64,000 nucleotides of DNA from Xiphias gladius. Its lineage: Eukaryota > Chordata > Actinopteri > Istiophoriformes > Xiphiidae. A program made the position numbers and the translations under genes. This document shows, in pieces, positions 5,861 to 64,000 of this stretch (position 1 is its first letter; every line of letters starts with the position of its first letter). Where the stretch lies: contig NC_053402.1 in assembly GCF_016859285.1 (NCBI RefSeq), positions 8,794,031 to 8,858,030 of the forward strand, given 5' to 3'. The notes under the pieces are model-generated. The model saw only the letters and a list, made by a program, of their open reading frames with translations. It did no database searches and was not told where the DNA came from.

Positions 5861-5898
5861 TGTGAGAGTTTATGTATTTTTTGAATACATAAACTCAC
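5861..5898. repeat. Short perfect-stem hairpin downstream of atf4
   Basis: TGTGAG(AG)TTTATGTATT pairs with AATACATAAACTCACA across a loop of about four bases: a 16-bp stem with one two-base bulge. It lies about 165 bases after the polyadenylation signal. No family recognised. Confidence 0.7.
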
Positions 5899-10791: not shown

Positions 10792-14897
<4,106 letters not shown>

Positions 14898-52557: not shown

Positions 52558-55500
52558 ATGAGCTCGTGGGTGCCGCTGCTGCTCGTGTTGCTGGCGGCGT
52601 GTCTGCGGTATGGCGTAGCCGAGGTGAGTTAGCATCAATCACAGTATGCTGAACTTTTAGAGGGACTTTACTGTAACAACCATGACTAGTCCTGTAGTAG
52701 CTATACTCTACAAATATCAGAGCATAACGCGACGCCCCGTTTTTTTTTGAAAATTTTACACGAGCACTGACGGGATATAAAATACTATAAAAGTATGCTA
52801 GCTAATATAAACTTAGGTTGTACTCTTTAAACCCCTTTATAACAGTGTAGCAACTATTTCCGAAGAATTACATAAAAAATTGAAAATAAGCTAACAAATA
52901 CTGTATGTGATGAATGTGTTCTTAACAAACACAACAGACGACACACAGACCAACATGATAATCAACCCCAGGTGGTTTTTCTAACTTTGGAGTGCACCTG
53001 CTTCAGTCCAGCCTCCTAATAAAAGCCAGTTTTTCTCTCGCTGCGTCCGAGAGGGGTGGTGGGATCCTTGCAGAAAATAACTGTTATTCCTCCCATTAAC
53101 TGGCGTTATGAATGGATGCCCAGGGGCAGACACATGCTGAGGTCTTCCTCTGTGGGTGATGAGACAGGAAACAGAGGCTGCCATGATAGGCTCTTTTACA
53201 GCTGGATGCTCCACGTGGTTAAGTGATGCAGTCATGGATGCTGTTCCAGATGTTGAGTGAGGATCAGCCAGTGAGTGCCATCCTACTGAGCAACATCATG
53301 CTATAGAGACCACATGTTTGTACAGTTGATGGCCAGGGGGAAAAAACACATGCAGAGACACTGTTTTGTTTTTCTAACTATGACGCCCAGGGTGAAATGT
53401 ATCTGGGGGACAAGATGACATGAGATGGTGTGTTGCTGTGTCTTGATGATTTTGAGAATGTCCAAGCCCTTTCCACTTTCAGCTGAAAATCTAGGCTGTT
53501 TAAGTCGGCTACATGGATTTTGCCATGTAGACGATGCACTTATTACTGCAGTTTCCCCCTCCAGTGAAATGCTGCTCCATTTTTTATTACACTGCATATC
53601 TGTATGAAGGGAATTTTCTTAAAAACTTTTGAAAGTGAACAGGCAGTAGTGAAATATGGATGCAGGATAGATGGACAAAGACTGAATGTCTGCTGAGGTC
53701 AAACAGGAAGACAAAACTTAACCAAGGGTCTCGTCTAGGTCAAGTGAGGCTTGACGATAAGTGACGTTGTAATTTTGGGGGGGGGGGGTCTGGCCTCTTT
53801 TTTGCAAGGGTTAGAAACACAGATAAAATCTGAATGGAGGCAGAAAGAAAGATAAAATCTGATTCTATAGACTTCATATCCTTTTTTTGCTGATATGAAT
53901 TCTATAGAAGTGGGATCAATGCACAGAGAATCTGATTCTGTTTTTCTTTCTGCCTCCATTCAGAATTTATCTGTTTCTGACCATTGCAATTCATGTCCAC
54001 AATGAAACACCAGTGTCAGTGACTTGTAAAACTAAATGGAGTTTAATAAACACACACAGTTAAAAAGTCAGTCATGGGGAGCCCTTTTGCCTAAGTATTT
54101 TTCATCCGGTCAGATGGGGTGGTATGGTTTGCCCCCTGAATGAATAACTTCTGCACATGTTGGAAACTATTAACTGTCAATTGAAATAAAATCAATAAAA
54201 AAAGGAGAGAAAAAAAATACAAACACAGAAGTTATTCAGGATGTGAACTGTTAATGTAATATATAAATTCCCCTACACTGTAAAGCTCCTGAATCATAAA
54301 GCATTATAACTGGTGTTATAAGTGGTTTTATTCCCCCTTTCATTCACTGAACCCATTTAATGTAGACAATGTACTGTATGTAGTCTACCATCACCACTAC
54401 TTCACATAAAGGGAGATTTTGTGAAACATAGCTGTGATGGATGACTTTAAATTCCTGTCGTCAACCCATCTTTTCATTTTATGGCTTCTGTAGACACCAC
54501 ATGTAAAAGAAAGATCAAATTTGACAGGCCAAGTGTTTTAGAGCGAGAATGTTACCAAGGCTTTGAGGTATACAAGCAGGAATTCCCCCATGTCCAATTT
54601 TAAAGTTATAGTCAGGGAATCTGTATGTTCAATCATGCCCCTTATAAAAAGAACATTATCATAAGAGAATGGGTTTAAAACACATATAGTGTTGAGAGTG
54701 AGTGATAATTTAAAACCCTGCTTATATATGAAGTGCTACTTATAATGAACATATACAGCACATTCAACTATGGACCACCAAGGAGGAATACATACATTAA
54801 CTTCTAGCCAACACAAACTCCTCATTATCTTCAGGCACCTTTCCAACTCCATGTAAAATATGACAAAGGAATTAATTAAAGTCACATTCATTCACACATT
54901 CCAGTGTTGCGCACGTGTAGGCGTAGTTTCAGTGACTGCATGTGAAGCCTCACATGTGCTGTGGCTACTGCTGCTGCGCCAGCAGCAAACTCGACCCCCT
55001 AATTATGTACGATTAAATGTTCCCTCTCCTCCCCTGCCCACTGCATCCGCTGCCTGTACCTGGCATTCCTAAACGTGTCCAATAGGCCTTCAGGGGATGG
55101 GAGCTTGCTTCAGGTGATAACTTTTGAATTATGTCAGACTTTTGGAACATGTAAAATGGTAAAAAAAAGTATACTGGACACCATAAGGTTATTGTACGTC
55201 ATTGCACCTGTGGACATTATAGAGAGCAGTTCAGTTAAGTAGTGCAGTTTCTAAGACGTGGTACTGCAGAAAGATTTCTGTGCTGCTGTACATAAACACA
55301 AAGCCAACATCATAATACCTAATCTAACAGCTGCCGTTGTCTCTGCTTCATCAGCAGAAGCCCATTATTTGAAACAGGCCAACTGCTCCAGATGCGGGTG
55401 AATGATGAGACAGACTTTGCTCAGACTCCCAGCACAGGGAAATATTAGCATTAGACTCACTGTCTTCACATTTTATTGCCCAAAGCGTGAACATTTGCCA

Positions 55501-58500
55501 TTTTATGGGCAACTAATCAGCTCTCTACAAAACTACGGGGATGCCCGTACAGCCTCTTGAAAGGAAGGAGGACATTAGAAATAGGAGTTGACAATATCCT
55601 CCCTTTGACAGTCTTGTGAGTAGAGCTGAGGTGATATGTCAATGAAAAGATCGCCAGCTTTTTGGATAATCCATTAATGTTGGAAATTATTTTTCAAGCA
55701 AAAAGGCCAAACACTCTCTAGTTTCAGCTTCTTAATTGTGGAATTTTGCAGTTGTTCTTTGTCTTATTGGATATTTAACTGAATATTTTTTGGTTCTGGA
55801 GTTTTGGTCCTACAAAGTGTGCAATTGGTTGACATCACCCTAGGCTTTAGGAAAGTGTGATGGGCACTTTTCATAATTTTCTCATGTTTTACAGACTAAG
55901 TGATTAATTGTTTAACTGAAAAAATAATCAACAGCTTAATCGATAATGAAAATAATCGCTAGTTGCGGCCTTACTTGTTAGCGTAGTTCTCAGTTGCAGG
56001 ACATATCTTTTTTTCAACGAACTTCCATTATTTTAGTATCTTGATATATTTAATGTATCAAAATACTCGTCCCTCATATTGCACATTGAAAATTATCAGT
56101 ATATGTTTACATATTCTGTCTGAGCAGTTTGATTCTGTTTACATCTGTTTTGTTTATCAGAACCAAAGTGTTTATTTAATATTTCCTGCTTAGACACAAA
56201 TCATCATGACAGCAGGCACCACCGTGAACAAAGGCACATATCCTATAATTAACATCAGACACAATTAGCCAAGCAGGCAGGTTTGCTCCATCAGCGAAGG
56301 GAGGAAATAATCATGATGACTCCTCAGGGGCATCTACAACGGAGATGTAAGTGTAATACAGCAGGCATTTCCCTGCTGGATAACTTGGCTCTATGAAAAT
56401 CCACCCAACAATGGGGCAAAGCAAGTGGCATACGGTACGGGCAGGGTCAGAATACATGTTCATGCATGGATGGCTACTTCCTTTGGCTAAAACCTGGTTC
56501 CCGCCAGATTCATTATATTCTCCAGAACCTAAATGGAATCCTGCACTGGACTGGACTCGCACTATAAAATTAATCTCGGGGCGTGCAACATTAAACATTT
56601 TGTGTATTTCCAAATGCTGATGTATGTTAATTATTAGACAGTAAATATTATGTCGACAGCTGCACAAGCCAGATCACATTGGCTCCCTTGGAATCATCTT
56701 CATTGGTTAATCTCACCGTGGGATGGCAAAGCAAATGAAGCACATCCACCGCATTTAAACAATTGTGAAGAAGTGTGTCGACCCATGTCTGATCCTCTTT
56801 CGTTCATCTATTATCGCTCTTTTTTCAGATGCACCTTTCTTCTCTCCTCCTCTCTATATCATTCCTTCCCCCACTTCCTGACTCCTTCCTGTCTCCTTTG
56901 ACCCCTAAATGTTAGCAGATGAGAAGACACAACGCCAATAGTCATTCACCCTGCTCTTAGTGACCATTGTGTGTCTGCTTTGGTTAATACCCCCCCCAAG
57001 CTCTCATGCCCATGAATGACTGGGGGGGGGGGAGTAAAACCCAGAGTCAGCTGTTGCTTGGTTTTTGTTGTGGTGGTATGGAAATATTTGGTCAAATGCA
57101 TGTTGTTCAAGGATAAAGTTAGTATTAAATAATAAAGCCAGCAATTTTGTTTTTTGTGCTTGATTCTGAGCCAATCATAATTCAGTGTTACTGAAATGTT
57201 TACAGGCATCATGGATGTAAGCAAACCCTTCACAGCCCCAGAGAGTATTATAACTTTAAGTTTAGTTATAATATATAAACAATGTTTTTATATTCAAAGT
57301 CCTGTCAATTTGAGAGTGATAGCAGGTTCGAGTGTCCAGGCTTTGGTTTTGATTTGTGATAGAAGAGATGCTGTTTTGTTTACATTTTGATCACCTATTG
57401 TGCCTCAGTCAACTATTGTAAGTACACATACTGAAAAACCTGTGACATGGTTGTTACAGAAGTGCTGCAGTGTTATTCCACTTCCTCAGAGGAATTGTTC
57501 GGAAAACTCTGTAATGCCTATTGCAGGATGTAGAAGGGTGGGAAATTCTCAAATAGCTATTCTTATTGTCATGCCCACTGCTGAAAAAATGTCTAAATGC
57601 TTATGTGTCATCTTCTTTTCCTCCTTTCCCATAATCATGTTCTAAGATGGTCCAGAGTAATGTATTGTACATTAGTCTTATTTCGTTGGTCTATTATATT
57701 AATTTATATATACCTGTGTGTTTCAGGGGGACCCTCTGCCTGCAGCCCTGGTGGAGCTGGTTAGAAACAGCCCCATCTCCTCCATAGAGGACCTTCAGCT
57801 GCTGCTGCTCTCTGACTCCGTAGGTAAAGATCAGAGCGTTCTACTATTATCTTTACAAACACTGAAACCAGATTCAGTATTTGGGGTTTATTATGGATCC
57901 TAACACAGCTGTGCTCTGTTCAAATTTTTATTTCAACCTTAGCAACATGTTAAACCTTAACCTAAACAGGACTACTTTTAATTTTATCGCTAAAAGTAAC
58001 CAATCAAACCATTTTTAATCTTACACCTAAAGCAAAGCACATAGTAGGGCAGACCAATAATGGTGTTCCTGCCCATAACACTAGCGGGATCTCTAGTTTT
58101 CTGTATCTGTAGCTCATTTATTACAAATAAATAAAATAAATAATATCATGGCATCCTTGTTTAGAATGTGGTTATGTTGAAATACTAAGGTAGAAAGTAT
58201 CATATATGTAGGCAACAATGTCATGAGAAACAGAATTGCCTACTTTATTGCTGAATGGGTTGAAAATCTTGTGCAACCTTCGGGTTTTCTTACTTCCTGA
58301 GAAGATGACAGTGTAGACAGACAGTGAAGACTTTGTTATTTATAATGCAACGATGAACTGAGAACTAACACAACAACAATTAGCGGTTACTATTCTACTC
58401 TAATTGTGACTATTTAACATCATCAGTACTAAATCTAACTCAGACAGAAAAAAGCAGGAGGAATGCATGATCTCAGAAACACACACAAACACACACATGC

Positions 58501-61500
58501 AAATACTCAAAGTTAGAATCATAACAACAGTTACTTTAACTAGGTTTAAGTCTCTGTTTCTTACTCTTTGCATGTGTATGTCCACATGCACACTCAAATG
58601 TGACATTAACTACCCCCACACCCCCTTTGTTCTCCCTCCCTCTTTCTGTCTTCTTGTGCATGCTCACATTTACACACCCACATGCAAGGACTCGGGCTCG
58701 TGTTTTATCTCCACACATGCAGAGGGCGCTAGAAGGCCTTAGAATAAAATATACGCCACGTACCAAAAACAGTTGCCATGTTTAGTCAAATGCTGTGTTT
58801 GTTTAATGTTTTGTCTCAGATGAAGAGGACGGGACTGCTGCAGCCAATGGAGGTCACAGACTACCAAGGAGCCTTGGTGAGATCAGCCCCCCTCCTGCCT
58901 TCGTGTTCCTCTAAAGTGTTATTTAGAAGACTTGCTTGTTGCTCTCAGAATGTAAATTTATTGTATATCAAGAAGGAGATAGCCACCACTGGTATTGCTC
59001 TCATGTAGCTTCTTTAGATATAAAAAAAAAAAAAAGCCTTCTCATGGCATGCATGATAAAACATGCATCAGTTTGTGAGGATAAATGTGTGCCTATTCCT
59101 ACTCAAAAATAGGAAAACAGAGGGCCATGGTGCTGGCATGGAGAATTCCTGAGTTTACTCATGAATGTAAAAGTACTCCGTCCTCATTGGTGTAGGACAG
59201 CCTTCCTTGGAGTTGATTTATGTGACAAGTATTGTTGGCCTGTCAAGTTTTAGTGACACGGTAAAATCCTTCCCATTAACCTTTTTTTTTTGCTATCATG
59301 ATAAAACAGATGTCTAAATGACTAAACATCAATTTACACCAGTCTTGGTGACTTTGCTGGATTCCCTCTCGCATGAGGAGATACTACTGGCCCTACATCA
59401 ATCCTTGTGTAAAGTACGGCCAATATCGTATATGTGTCCTTTTATGTCAGCTCCAGAGAAGCAAAACAGTCTTATTGAACAGTGTACTTTTGTGAAGCAC
59501 AGTGGAATGAGATTCCCTCATGTTTCAGACCAATATGACGCTGATTAGAAGAAGTCATATCATATCAGTTTTATTTTATAATCCAGCTGATTGTTTCTGC
59601 TCTGCAACAGCAAGAAACAGGCTGTAAGGGATGCTGTGCTGCTAATGCAAGTTAGTCATAGGTGAGCTGCATAAGTCATAGCCCCTAATGTATAGAACAG
59701 TAAATTGGGCTTCAATGATAAGAGCTCACATTGCAACGAGCCCCATGTGCTTTTTAATTGTTGTCTCTGAATTATTGGTTTAACAAGCATATACACAAAG
59801 GGAAGGTGCTTCTCAATAGTCAAGAAGAGTAAAAGGTATTTGTTACAATGGAGTATGTTTTGAATACTAATACTCATGCTAATGCTAACACCATTACTAC
59901 CAGTCATAATCATACTCAGTCATATCTCATCCCTCAGATGCCCAGCCGGCCCAGCAGGCTCTGTGTAAAGTACGTACAGAGGTGGTTGAGGTCACCAGGG
60001 CGATGTTGGACCGTAGCAATGCTAACTTTCTGTTATGGCCACCTTGCGTTGAGGTGCAGCGCTGCTCCGGCTGCTGCAACACCAAGAGCCTGCAGTGTGT
60101 CCCTGTTGTCACGCACACCAGATACTTGCAGGTAAAAAACCACATACACACAGATATACATACAAATCATTTCAAAACACAATGCCAAAACACAATGTCA
60201 AAACATACACATGTAGGCACTGTGTTTTTGTTATACTGCTAATTTTCCCCTGTTATTCCCACCTTCCCCTTAACCTCTCCAGGTCATGAAGATTGAATAC
60301 ATAAATAAAAGACCCACTTACGCTAAAGCGGTGGTGTCAGTGTTGGATCATGTGGAGTGCCGTTGTCAGCCGGTGTCACGTCCCCCGGTGCCCAGGAAAA
60401 AATCATCTCGCAGACAGCACAGCCACCAGCATCGAAACCAGACGCTCAGCCAAGAACACGGACAGGGAAAGGTACAGTGTCAATGCTATTGTACATGCTC
60501 TCTCTGTTGTTTGAGGGATGCTAGAACCACACTAAGTGCACAACTTGGATTCGCAAATTATATTGTGGCACAAAATAATGGCAAGACAAAACCCGTTTTT
60601 GTTTTATGTATCCAGACGTTAAAACTGGCACATTTTATGACAACGTTTAGTATGATGAGTTTCAAGCAGTCAAGCTCATGTTTCAACGTAAGGCTAAGGT
60701 TATACACAATACTTATAAAGGTTTGAACACAACAACACAAGAAAAAAACTACCTTTACTACAAGGTTTGAGGTTTCCGCCAAACTTGAGTACAAAACTGC
60801 AACCCTTTGCCTAACCACTTTTATTAAACAATTTCTCTGGCAACAAAATATCTAAATGCAGCCCAACACATCTTCAACACTGATTCACAATAAAACACAT
60901 AATAAAACATAATTTTGCTTTGTAGTAATAATTTTGTGAGTTGATTTTAAAGTATAGGTTTGGACCCATCCTATAACATTAGATAATAAATAAACCGAAA
61001 AATTCGACTGTAGAATTATTTTGTCATACAAATGCCTAGTACACACCATTTGAAATGTTTACTCATCAACACTGATTCTAAATGGACAAAACTGAGACAA
61101 ACTATACCCAATTAAGCTGAACTGAATTTTGTTGAATTTTATTGTCAAAGGTCAAGATGCAATCCAAAGATGAGCTCCATCAGTGGGATGAGCTGAAACA
61201 GAACCAGAGGGCCCACCTGGAGGATCTCCTGGAGCAGCACTGGAGCCCCAGAGGAGACACCTTCAATCAGCCTGGAGAAGGGTACAGTCTGGCTGCGGAC
61301 GACACATCTCGGTCTGGAGAGGCTATTCTCTTTGCTCCACACTGGGCACATAACTCCAGCAGGCCCCATGGGACTGAAGACCAATCTGAGAATCCAGAGA
61401 ATGTGGAGAGGAAGTATGGTATGATCTCAAATGGCAGCAAGACTGTTTCCTCTGCGGATGATGTCGGCGTTGAGGTAAAGAACAAGTTGGTAGAAGGTGG

Positions 61501-62366
61501 GAATGGGTTGCTGTTTAACAGTACGGAAGGGAAAGTTAATGAGGGAAATGGAGGCAAGAACAAAGGCACAAAAACACACAGCCCATTTTTGCAAGAAGAC
61601 AAATCCAAATTTACAAAGAATCACACAAGTGGTATTTTTCAGCCTGTTACTCAGAATGCTCAAGCCAAATTCAGTCCTACTGAGGAAACCATTAGTCAGA
61701 GAGTTGGGAGCAGGTTCCGACCAACCAAAGAGCCAAATCCAGAGCCTCGAGAGCAATCCAGACGGAGAGAGAACGAGACTCCAGAGGAAGAGAGGATATT
61801 ACAGATTGAGGAGGCAAAACTGGAGGAGGAGAGAAAAGAGCTTGTACTTCTCCACAAGAGGTTGGACCAAGAGAAGGACATACTGAGACAGCAGCAGTTG
61901 AAACGAGAAGAAGAGGAAAGGCAGAAAGAAAAGGGGACAGATATTCGACATCACCTGCATGTAAAACATCATCATCTGCAGACAACAACACAGAAACCAG
62001 GTAATAGAAAGTGTTTAATACTGGAGTAATAAAAAAAAATATGAATACCTGTCAGACTAAAATAATGTGGTTAAATGAAATGAGTGTCCTGTTCTCAAGA
62101 ATGTTTTCACAAAGCCACTTGAGTAGAAGTAATAGAGTTTTGGTAGTTTTCTTTTCTTTTTTTTCTTTTTAATGTTTCTTTTTATATATTTCTCGTAATA
62201 TGTAAATTCTATTCTTACAGAGACAACAACATCTACGACTACCACACGAAAGCCCTTGGCTCCAGCAGGCCCCAGACCCCCCGCTCGTCCAAACCAAACA
62301 AAGAGAAGGATGAGGAAGAATCGCAAACGGATCAGCAAGGCAGCTATGAGAGCAATGCTAATGTAG
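52558..62366 (+). CDS. pdgfb: Platelet-derived growth factor subunit B with an expanded C-terminal region
   Basis: Seven coding exons join in phase: 52558-52623, 57727-57823, 58820-58876, 59938-60131, 60283-60471, 61151-62000, 62221-62366 (TAG); 1,599 nt, 532 aa against 241 in human. Residues 1-22 include a signal peptide ([16 protein letters not shown]). The propeptide ends at RLPR71, a furin-type site before SL, like human RGRR-SL. The PDGF/VEGF cystine-knot domain spans about 83-166: CKVRTEV, then [20 protein letters not shown] and CRC at 164-166. Exon 6 adds residues 202-485, hydrophilic, with five N-glycosylation sequons, a Glu/Arg/Lys-rich helix (about 415-465) and a His-rich patch. Exon 7 ends in a basic tail ([10 protein letters not shown]) resembling the human matrix-retention motif. 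PDGF-B is a secreted dimer that recruits pericytes through PDGFR-beta. Teleosts may have two pdgfb paralogues. Confidence 0.93.
53810..53982. repeat. Inverted repeat of about 173 bp in pdgfb intron 1
   Basis: The left arm (TTAGAAACACAGATAAAATC, then TGAATGGAGGCAGAAAGAAA, then TTCTATAGACTTCATATC at 53863-53880) is mirrored in the right arm (GATATGAATTCTATAGAAG at 53892, TTTCTTTCTGCCTCCATTCA at 53943, ATTTATCTGTTTCTGACC at 53965). The loop is about 11 bases and the arms contain mismatches and a small insertion. As RNA it would fold into a long hairpin. Family unknown. Confidence 0.78.
55622..55976. mobile_element. Teleost hAT-derived repeat in pdgfb intron 1
   Basis: Starts AGAGCTGAGGTGATATGTCA and ends AATAATCGCTAGTTGCGGCC; the interior shares TTTTTCAAGCAAAAAGGCC, TTGACATCACCCTAGGCTTT and TTAATCGATAATGAAAATAA with the family seen at 19545-19868. 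Most complete of the four copies. Confidence 0.7.
57824..58819. other. pdgfb intron 2, no further feature
   Basis: Intron of 1.0 kb between the exon ending at 57823 and the small 57-nt exon. Contains CA-rich stretches near 58475-58505 but nothing else recognised. Confidence 0.6.
58877..59937. other. pdgfb intron 3, no further feature
   Basis: Intron of 1.1 kb, ending in the TCCCTCAG acceptor before the growth-factor exon. Nothing recognised. Confidence 0.6.
60472..61150. other. pdgfb intron 5
   Basis: Intron of 0.7 kb before the large extra exon. Its acceptor (TTGTCAAAG) lacks a strong polypyrimidine tract, so recognition of the extra exon could be weak or regulated. Confidence 0.6.
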
Positions 62367-64000
62367 CACTAAAATTACCCCAGGTGAGTAGATCACAGAA
62401 CATGTAGGCAATAAAATAAAATGAATGAAAAAAGTATTAACCAATCAGTTTTGAATCAGTGAATGTAAAACTGTGGAAAACCGTGCTACTATGTGTGAAG
62501 TTTAAATTATGCCTTACTATATTTCCCCTTCAGGGACACAACGTGAACTTGGTGTATTTTGCGGATAATCCAGAGGTGAAGCAGAGTGACTCCCTTCATA
62601 TAAATATTTATTCATTCATTCAGTAACCTGCTCATCCTGTGAGATCTCCTCAGTAACACTACTAATGACTGTCTGGTGAACCTGTATTTACATCTGGACC
62701 AAGTAAGAGGAGGGTGAGAGGAAAAGGGAATATAAAGGTGGACCTTTTTTTTTTTAAAAAGAGAACAATTGCCTCTACAACGAAAGCTGCTGGTATTAAG
62801 TAACAAGTGGCACCTGAAGACTGAAAAAATTGTGTGCAAGCACAGTACATCTGGAGGACTGAAACTGCATCGCTGTAGAACTGTGGATAATAGTGCAATT
62901 TCAAAACTCTACTTGGAACCATGTTTTGATATCAACAGAGAGAAACTGCACTTATATATTGACAAAACCGAGTCTATATGAGGTTTAAATGAGAAAGACT
63001 GTTGCTGAAAGACTTGATTTTGTGATAATGACAGTCAGACTGGACTATGAAGTGCGTTTGGTGGAAAAATGGACATAAAAGTGGACATAACTCTTCTGTT
63101 TCATGAAAGAACGTTTTGTAATGTAATTGGATAATCTAAGAGACAATCATCAACAGACTGAAGTGACAACTAATGCTGACTAAAATGACCAGTATTTCAA
63201 TGTGTGATAGAACTCACATATTTAGGGCTCAGTCTTGACTATGTTGGGAAGATAAAGCTGTGTAGATTTACCATACCAAGGCTAGATATCATTTATTAGC
63301 TCATTAAAACAGTGATGGTCTCTCTTTAACCATATTTAATTATATTTAACTCATTGCAAACACTGGAATCACATGGATGTGATTAGAGAACCGAAACATA
63401 AAATGTGGCATTAGGGAGGTTTCTTTGTTTCAAAATCTCATCACAGGTGTGAAGAAAAAAGAGTAAGGTGCTATCTGAATATGAGGTGATAGCATTACAC
63501 CTGTTACCTGACTGTGTGGTATGTTTTTTATTTATTTATCTATACCATTACTGTGGATTAACTCTTTATAGAAATACTGCAAACAAGTTGTCTTTAAGAT
63601 CGGTAGACACATTCAGTCTGTCACGATGGCTGGATGGTTCAATCAGAAGCAATGAACAAGTTCAAGAAAAAGATCACAACCATTTATGTCCTCCCAATAT
63701 CATGCAGTGTTTAACTATGTCGAAAAAAGTTTGTGCATGTGTGTTTGTTTTGTATGCCTAAGTATGTGGTGTCGTGTGTGTACGGGCATATGCCCACACC
63801 TACACTTCTGTCATGCATCTCAATATTCATGTAGAAGCATATATCTGTTTCTCTCTGTCTCTTTCTCTCTTTGAGACGTCTCTCTTCCACCAGTTACATT
63901 TTGGTAGATACAATCACATTTCTTTCAAACTGTGGGAGGAGGGGGAACACCTATCTACAACATATTTTCTTTAACTGTCCCTATATTTGTTTTATTAATC
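62367..64000 (+). other. pdgfb 3' UTR, interrupted by an intron
   Basis: The stop codon is followed by 17 bases and a donor (GTGAGT at 62384); an acceptor (CCCTTCAG) precedes 62534, so a non-coding last exon is likely, as in human PDGFB, whose final exon is also non-coding. ATTTA motifs occur near 62604, and a T-rich/TG-rich stretch is near 63730-63790. No clear polyadenylation signal was found before the window ends, so the UTR may continue beyond. Confidence 0.55.

Follow-up and report, generated by a model that had tools for sequence, protein, structure and literature searches.

PDGF-B of mammals consists of a signal peptide, a propeptide, a cystine-knot domain and a basic C-terminal retention motif. 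In the human gene, exon 5 joins the exon for the basic tail directly. The mouse protein has a length of 241 aa, and a stop placed at residue 211, in exon 6, has been used to delete its retention motif (PMC8308020). According to the same source, the motif binds heparan sulfate and holds PDGF-B near cells, and the growth factor occurs both with and without it. Long C-terminal extensions have been described for other PDGF/VEGF-family growth factors, namely VEGF-C and VEGF-D, where they contain a repetitive cysteine pattern (PMC10328876). Most surveyed teleosts have duplicated PDGF/VEGF genes, and pdgfba has apparently been lost in five of six salmonids (PMC10328876).

The DNA analysed here, referred to as the window, is a stretch of 64,000 nt from Xiphias gladius (C3:8794031-8858030, NC_053402.1), and the genome searched for comparison comprises 690.8 Mb. 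The window contains a seven-exon coding model from 52558 to 62366 for a protein of 532 aa, with a predicted signal peptide, a predicted RLPR/SL site and a predicted basic tail. A second copy of the gene, discussed below, is located on C15. The parts of the window copy are as follows.

52558..52623, + strand: pdgfb exon 1, coding part with the signal peptide (hydrophobic ATG frame, GTGAGT donor, in frame with exon 2)
57727..57823, + strand: exon 2, propeptide (PDGF_N 30.0 bits, cut-off 29.5)
58820..58876, + strand: exon 3, propeptide with the RLPR/SL cleavage-like site (from the joined model)
59938..60131, + strand: exon 4, first part of the cystine-knot domain (from the joined model and Pfam PDGF)
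60283..60471, + strand: exon 5, end of the cystine-knot domain, then the basic stretch PRKKSSRRQ; ends in phase 0
60472..61150, + strand: additional intron in phase 0 with an AAG/G junction, not present in the C15 copy; single-copy in the genome
61151..62000, + strand: exon 6, a block of 283 residues with no Cys, five sequons and helices predicted at block residues 6-30 and 210-280
62001..62220, + strand: phase-1 intron before the tail, its phase common to the C15 pdgfb and the exon-5 donors of both pdgfa genes
62221..62383, + strand: exon 7, Thr/Pro-rich start and basic tail; stop at 62364-62366, 3' UTR donor after 62383

Judged by its predicted protein, the gene that carries exon 61151-62000 is a pdgfb. 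The modelled protein matches the PDGF/VEGF cystine-knot domain (PF00341) with 89.9 bits against a cut-off of 27, and passes narrowly for the PDGF N-terminal propeptide region (PF04692, 30.0 bits against 29.5). Among solved structures, the PDGFB entry 3mjg is best (139 bits), and the PDGFA entry 3mjk is next in kind (113 bits). As in mammals, signal peptide, propeptide, knot and basic C-terminal motif are present, and the tail has its own exon behind a phase-1 intron. In contrast to mammalian PDGF-B, a block of about 280 residues lies between knot and tail. The 532 aa of the model thus depart from the mammalian length near 241 aa with its short stretch between knot and tail, but protein length is not counted as a defining feature of the PDGF-B family. 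At the 3' end of the gene, the stop in exon 7 precedes a donor by 17 nt. A GT donor is found at most 20 nt past the stop in both pdgfb copies (window 62364-62400; L023:5265-5290), which suggests a 3' UTR intron common to the two.

Other coding stretches were recognized elsewhere in the window. Two AIG1/GIMAP-type GTPase stretches lie on the - strand (10937-11749 and 13463-14074; Pfam AIG1, 117.4 and 75.6 bits), and an apolipoprotein L-like stretch is located at 1473-2270 (Pfam ApoL, 56.9 bits). Part of an adenylosuccinate lyase-like gene at 22160-22585 matches NCBIfam purB (E 1.7e-16) and has no Pfam match; its 60 bits are far under the cut-off for the whole protein, which would not be surprising for a single exon.

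The initial annotation had described 61151-62000 as an 850-nt exon with in-phase splice sites, free of stops across 283 codons, which more than doubles the protein. These points stand. The splice sites are of the GT/AG type (acceptor ...CAAAG/, donor /GTAATA), the exon is entered in phase 0 and left in phase 1, and 283 of the 532 modelled residues come from it. The reading frame contains no stop, against 2 to 13 in the other five frames. A chance open frame can be ruled out, since 283 open codons have a probability of 1.6e-7 for the base composition of the exon and of 1.9e-8 for that of the window, and since the 3-base periodicity is 8.6, compared with a mean of 1.05 and a maximum of 2.8 for controls. 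The controls were 26 window stretches taken as non-coding, some of them overlapping and one including the 66-nt exon 1. A recount confirmed the five N-glycosylation sequons, to which two more are added outside exon 6 (residues 190 and 509 of the modelled protein). The His-rich patch can be read directly from the sequence, and the charged helix was recovered at exon residues 210-280 in a single-sequence structure model.

The pyrimidine tract at the exon 6 acceptor, as read from the sequence, is weak. This would fit a main pdgfb transcript that joins other sites and leaves exon 6 unused, which we regard as very improbable. A direct join of exon 5 to exon 7 (60471 to 62221) shifts the frame, loses the basic tail and reaches a stop at 62311, which is 70 nt upstream of the final junction. 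The open frame and the periodicity also speak against an unused exon, as does the C15 copy, in which the equivalent block lies within an obligatory exon. Exon 61151-62000 is therefore taken as a genuine coding part of this fish pdgfb.

At the search thresholds used, exon 6 matched only itself in the whole genome, both as protein and as DNA. A recent repeat or exonised transposon is rejected, because exon 6 and the intron 60472-61150 each match only themselves genome-wide; an old repeat origin is less firmly ruled out, since the repeat search passes over very common words. Tandem repeats with a score of 30 or more were not found in exon 6. There was no Pfam match for the block at E up to 1, and no NCBIfam match at E up to 0.01, the latter being of little weight for a prokaryote library. 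The sole PDB match, a GrpE chain with an E of 0.94, was set aside as a chance likeness of charged helices. Pattern searches gave 139 and 100 matches in prokaryote contigs and 33 in viral contigs, none of them confirmed as a relative of the block; as these collections comprise prokaryotes and viruses, the result is uninformative about fish.

With a limit of E 10, a genome-wide search with the PF00341 profile returned 20 places, of which 13 scored above the cut-off. One is the second pdgfb, with exons spanning 7043248 to 7050268 of C15. The second half of its knot sits within an open frame of 437 aa. Exon 5 of this copy is 1126 nt long (L023:1822-2947, C15:7046822-7047947) and continues after the knot with a Ser/Pro run and then a hydrophilic block of about 290 aa. 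The donor of this exon is in phase 1, splits a G codon and leads in frame into the tail. The 3-base periodicity of the C15 block is 13.0, compared with the maximum of 2.8 in the 26 window controls. Identity between the copies amounts to 21/32 in exon 2, 54/64 in exon 4 and 19/29 in the exon 5 core. The order of the parts, the block length and the phase-1 intron are alike, and the last 17 residues of the two tails are very similar. The copies differ in that the C15 block is fused to exon 5 and preceded by the Ser/Pro run, that it has Gln/His-rich runs in the middle and no sequon, and that its charged segment near the 3' end is much shorter. Exon 3 of the C15 gene has several possible acceptors, and no convincing candidate for exon 1 was found in about 8 kb upstream of exon 2.

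The two genes have a neighbour in common. For a bZIP gene of the window (by domain match), which we take to be atf4, a genome search returned a relative with 49% identity at C15:6960207, some 85 kb away from the C15 pdgfb; the same search gave two further matches, both weak. The presence of an atf4-like gene beside both pdgfb copies argues, as a single marker, that both sit in duplicated segments. On the basis of this one marker and of general knowledge, we presume that the duplication is that of the teleost whole genome.

It is less obvious whether the blocks themselves are related. Only 69 of 243 aligned positions are identical, the BLASTP comparison of block against block gives an E of 0.016, and neither block retrieves its counterpart in a search of the genome. 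Their compositions differ as well, being Gln/His-rich in one copy and Glu/Lys-rich in the other, and the sequons are not shared. These observations would agree with an independent origin in the two genes once they had been duplicated, at a place in exon 5 where the growth of hydrophilic sequence is tolerated. However, the score of the global block alignment was reached by none of 500 full shuffles and by two of 500 block shuffles. Local alignment of the whole blocks was weaker than global alignment, its score being reached by 3/500 full and 8/500 block shuffles. Beyond this overall likeness, there are collinear islands near the 5' and 3' ends of the block.

61163..61225, + strand: 5' island, 21 residues in the window copy, common to the C15 block (BLASTP E 0.016)
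61946..61981, + strand: His-rich patch, 12 residues, with the C15 counterpart HLHPHHPLQ

The 5' island (SKxxLHxxDxLKxNQ, about 21-22 residues) is the best-kept stretch of the block and falls in a predicted helix; its score was reached by 1/2000 full and 2/2000 block shuffles. For the entire 3' end (EEERxxK ... HLHxHHxLQ), the score was reached more often (43/2000 and 79/2000 shuffles). A middle island, ETxSQxVG, was discarded as homology evidence, because 299/2000 and 290/2000 shuffles reach its score. The blocks also correspond in position, length, flanking exons and donor phase. Given the collinear islands, the global alignment and the similar lengths and positions, an independent origin is unlikely, and a common origin of the two blocks is likely. 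Since an apparently diverged form of the block is also present in the second pdgfb copy, it is probably an old feature that has been kept.

The pdgfa genes help to place the block in the exon structure. Two copies were found, on C3 at 14.18-14.19 Mb and on C15 at 7.266 Mb. In both, exon 5 ends shortly after the knot, at a donor in phase 1 that splits a G codon, and the coding region before the tail ends likewise in both pdgfb copies; unlike in pdgfb, no long block is attached. The basic tail exon of the C3 pdgfa starts about 690 nt past the start of exon 5, and two basic stretches lie downstream of exon 5 in the C15 pdgfa (near 5869 and 6074 in L024). It was also observed that C3 (8.85 and 14.19 Mb) and C15 (7.05 and 7.27 Mb) each carry one pdgfb and one pdgfa, only about 220 kb apart on C15.

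As the phase-1 donor before the tail is common to pdgfa and pdgfb, the block is best understood as an extension of exon 5 upstream of an old intron. With the phase-1 intron being old, the phase-0 intron 60472-61150 becomes the additional one. A simple cassette exon placed in intron 5 is disfavoured, because the old donor is in phase 1 and exon 6 is entered in phase 0. The "large extra exon" of the initial annotation is thus correct in part: the block is a separate exon in the window copy, but belongs to the growth-factor exon in the C15 copy. We suggest that the block arose by 3' expansion of the growth-factor exon, before the duplication that gave the two pdgfb genes. The long exon would then have been split in the window copy by the phase-0 intron, at the AAG/G site.

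The phase-0 intron is absent from the C15 copy, and the comparison is one of two copies. Alternatively, the intron may be the older state and may have been lost from C15. This order of events is doubtful, though it deserves serious consideration: fish genes are also known to lose introns (PMC2939575), and two copies are a small basis for comparison. A phase-0 intron upstream of the exon-5 donor is missing from the pdgfa copies, which is unfavourable to loss, but these genes cannot decide between gain and loss, because they lack the block. Also unfavourable to loss is the AAG/G junction, as it conforms to the proto-splice form that has been reported where fish introns were gained (PMC3151243). 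Raised intron turnover has been reported for teleosts (PMC12357937). Gain in the window copy is thought likelier than loss in C15, and is the probable course of events.

What the block does can be approached from its composition and position. Neither block contains a cysteine, which sets them apart from the cysteine-patterned extensions of VEGF-C and VEGF-D. The window block has 33% charged residues and low hydropathy, and a charge-hydropathy analysis places both blocks on the disordered side. The single-sequence model of the window block shows helices at 6-30 and 210-280 with low confidence between them, and pLDDT is under 50 at 126 of the 283 residues, which for a prediction from one sequence is a hint only. 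With five sequons in the window block and none in the C15 block, glycosylation is not a property common to both. In the predicted proteins of both copies, the basic tail is preceded by a long flexible region whose start is related between them and whose end is rich in His. The "long spacer" proposed initially fits the lack of cysteine, the low hydropathy, the low-confidence model and the basic tail that follows in both copies. The "interaction module" proposed alongside gains less, the best-kept stretch being the 5' island in the predicted helix.

Composition and position thus point most of all to a long, mostly disordered linker between the receptor-binding dimer and the matrix-binding tail. 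Such a linker, glycosylatable in the window copy, would keep the dimer away from the basic tail. The window block is flanked by basic cleavage-like sites, and is probably severable by proteolysis. Cleavage at such sites, for example at KKSSRR/Q just past the knot, would free a diffusible dimer from linker and tail. In other words, receptor binding and matrix binding may be kept apart by a long tether or by a large C-terminal propeptide, which could be cut at basic sites.

The same flanking sites could also belong to a fast-changing and largely functionless part of a disordered C-terminal propeptide, which is cut away and whose presence, rather than sequence, is tolerated. Most of the block is indeed not conserved between the copies and is predicted to be without structure. 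However, strong periodicity and a frame that has stayed open for some 290 codons are seen in both copies, the 5' island has been kept, and a block with so little function is a rather improbable explanation. The account given here as a whole, that is a coding block, expansion of exon 5 before the duplication, later intron gain and a role as a linker, is the best explanation of the data, and we hold it with slightly better than even confidence.

A bolder extension would see the block as a module that is ancient in the PDGF-B of ray-finned fishes and provides an adjustable tether in both duplicates, with exon 6 skipping as a splice switch. The additional phase-0 intron would make the block skippable in the window copy. 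As skipping also removes the basic tail, one splice choice could select between a long-tethered, matrix-bound and a short, diffusible PDGF-B. In platelets, it is proteolytic processing that has been described for the switch between matrix-bound and diffusible PDGF-B (PMC8308020). We consider the splice switch a long shot.

In the open-licence literature, as far as its accessible text extends, no description of such a block in fish PDGF-B was found. Models of pericyte recruitment give a central place to the retention of PDGF-B near the vessel through its basic tail (PMC8308020), and the two zebrafish pdgfb genes jointly act in the recruitment of smooth muscle (PMC7719186). If fish PDGF-B has a spacer of about 280 residues, fish would be a natural system in which to test the influence of tether length and processing on the gradient. 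Two copies whose linkers differ, and of which one has an exon that could be skipped, would lend themselves to comparison. If the finding holds, the retention-motif picture drawn from the mouse should allow for the spacer when it is applied to fish.
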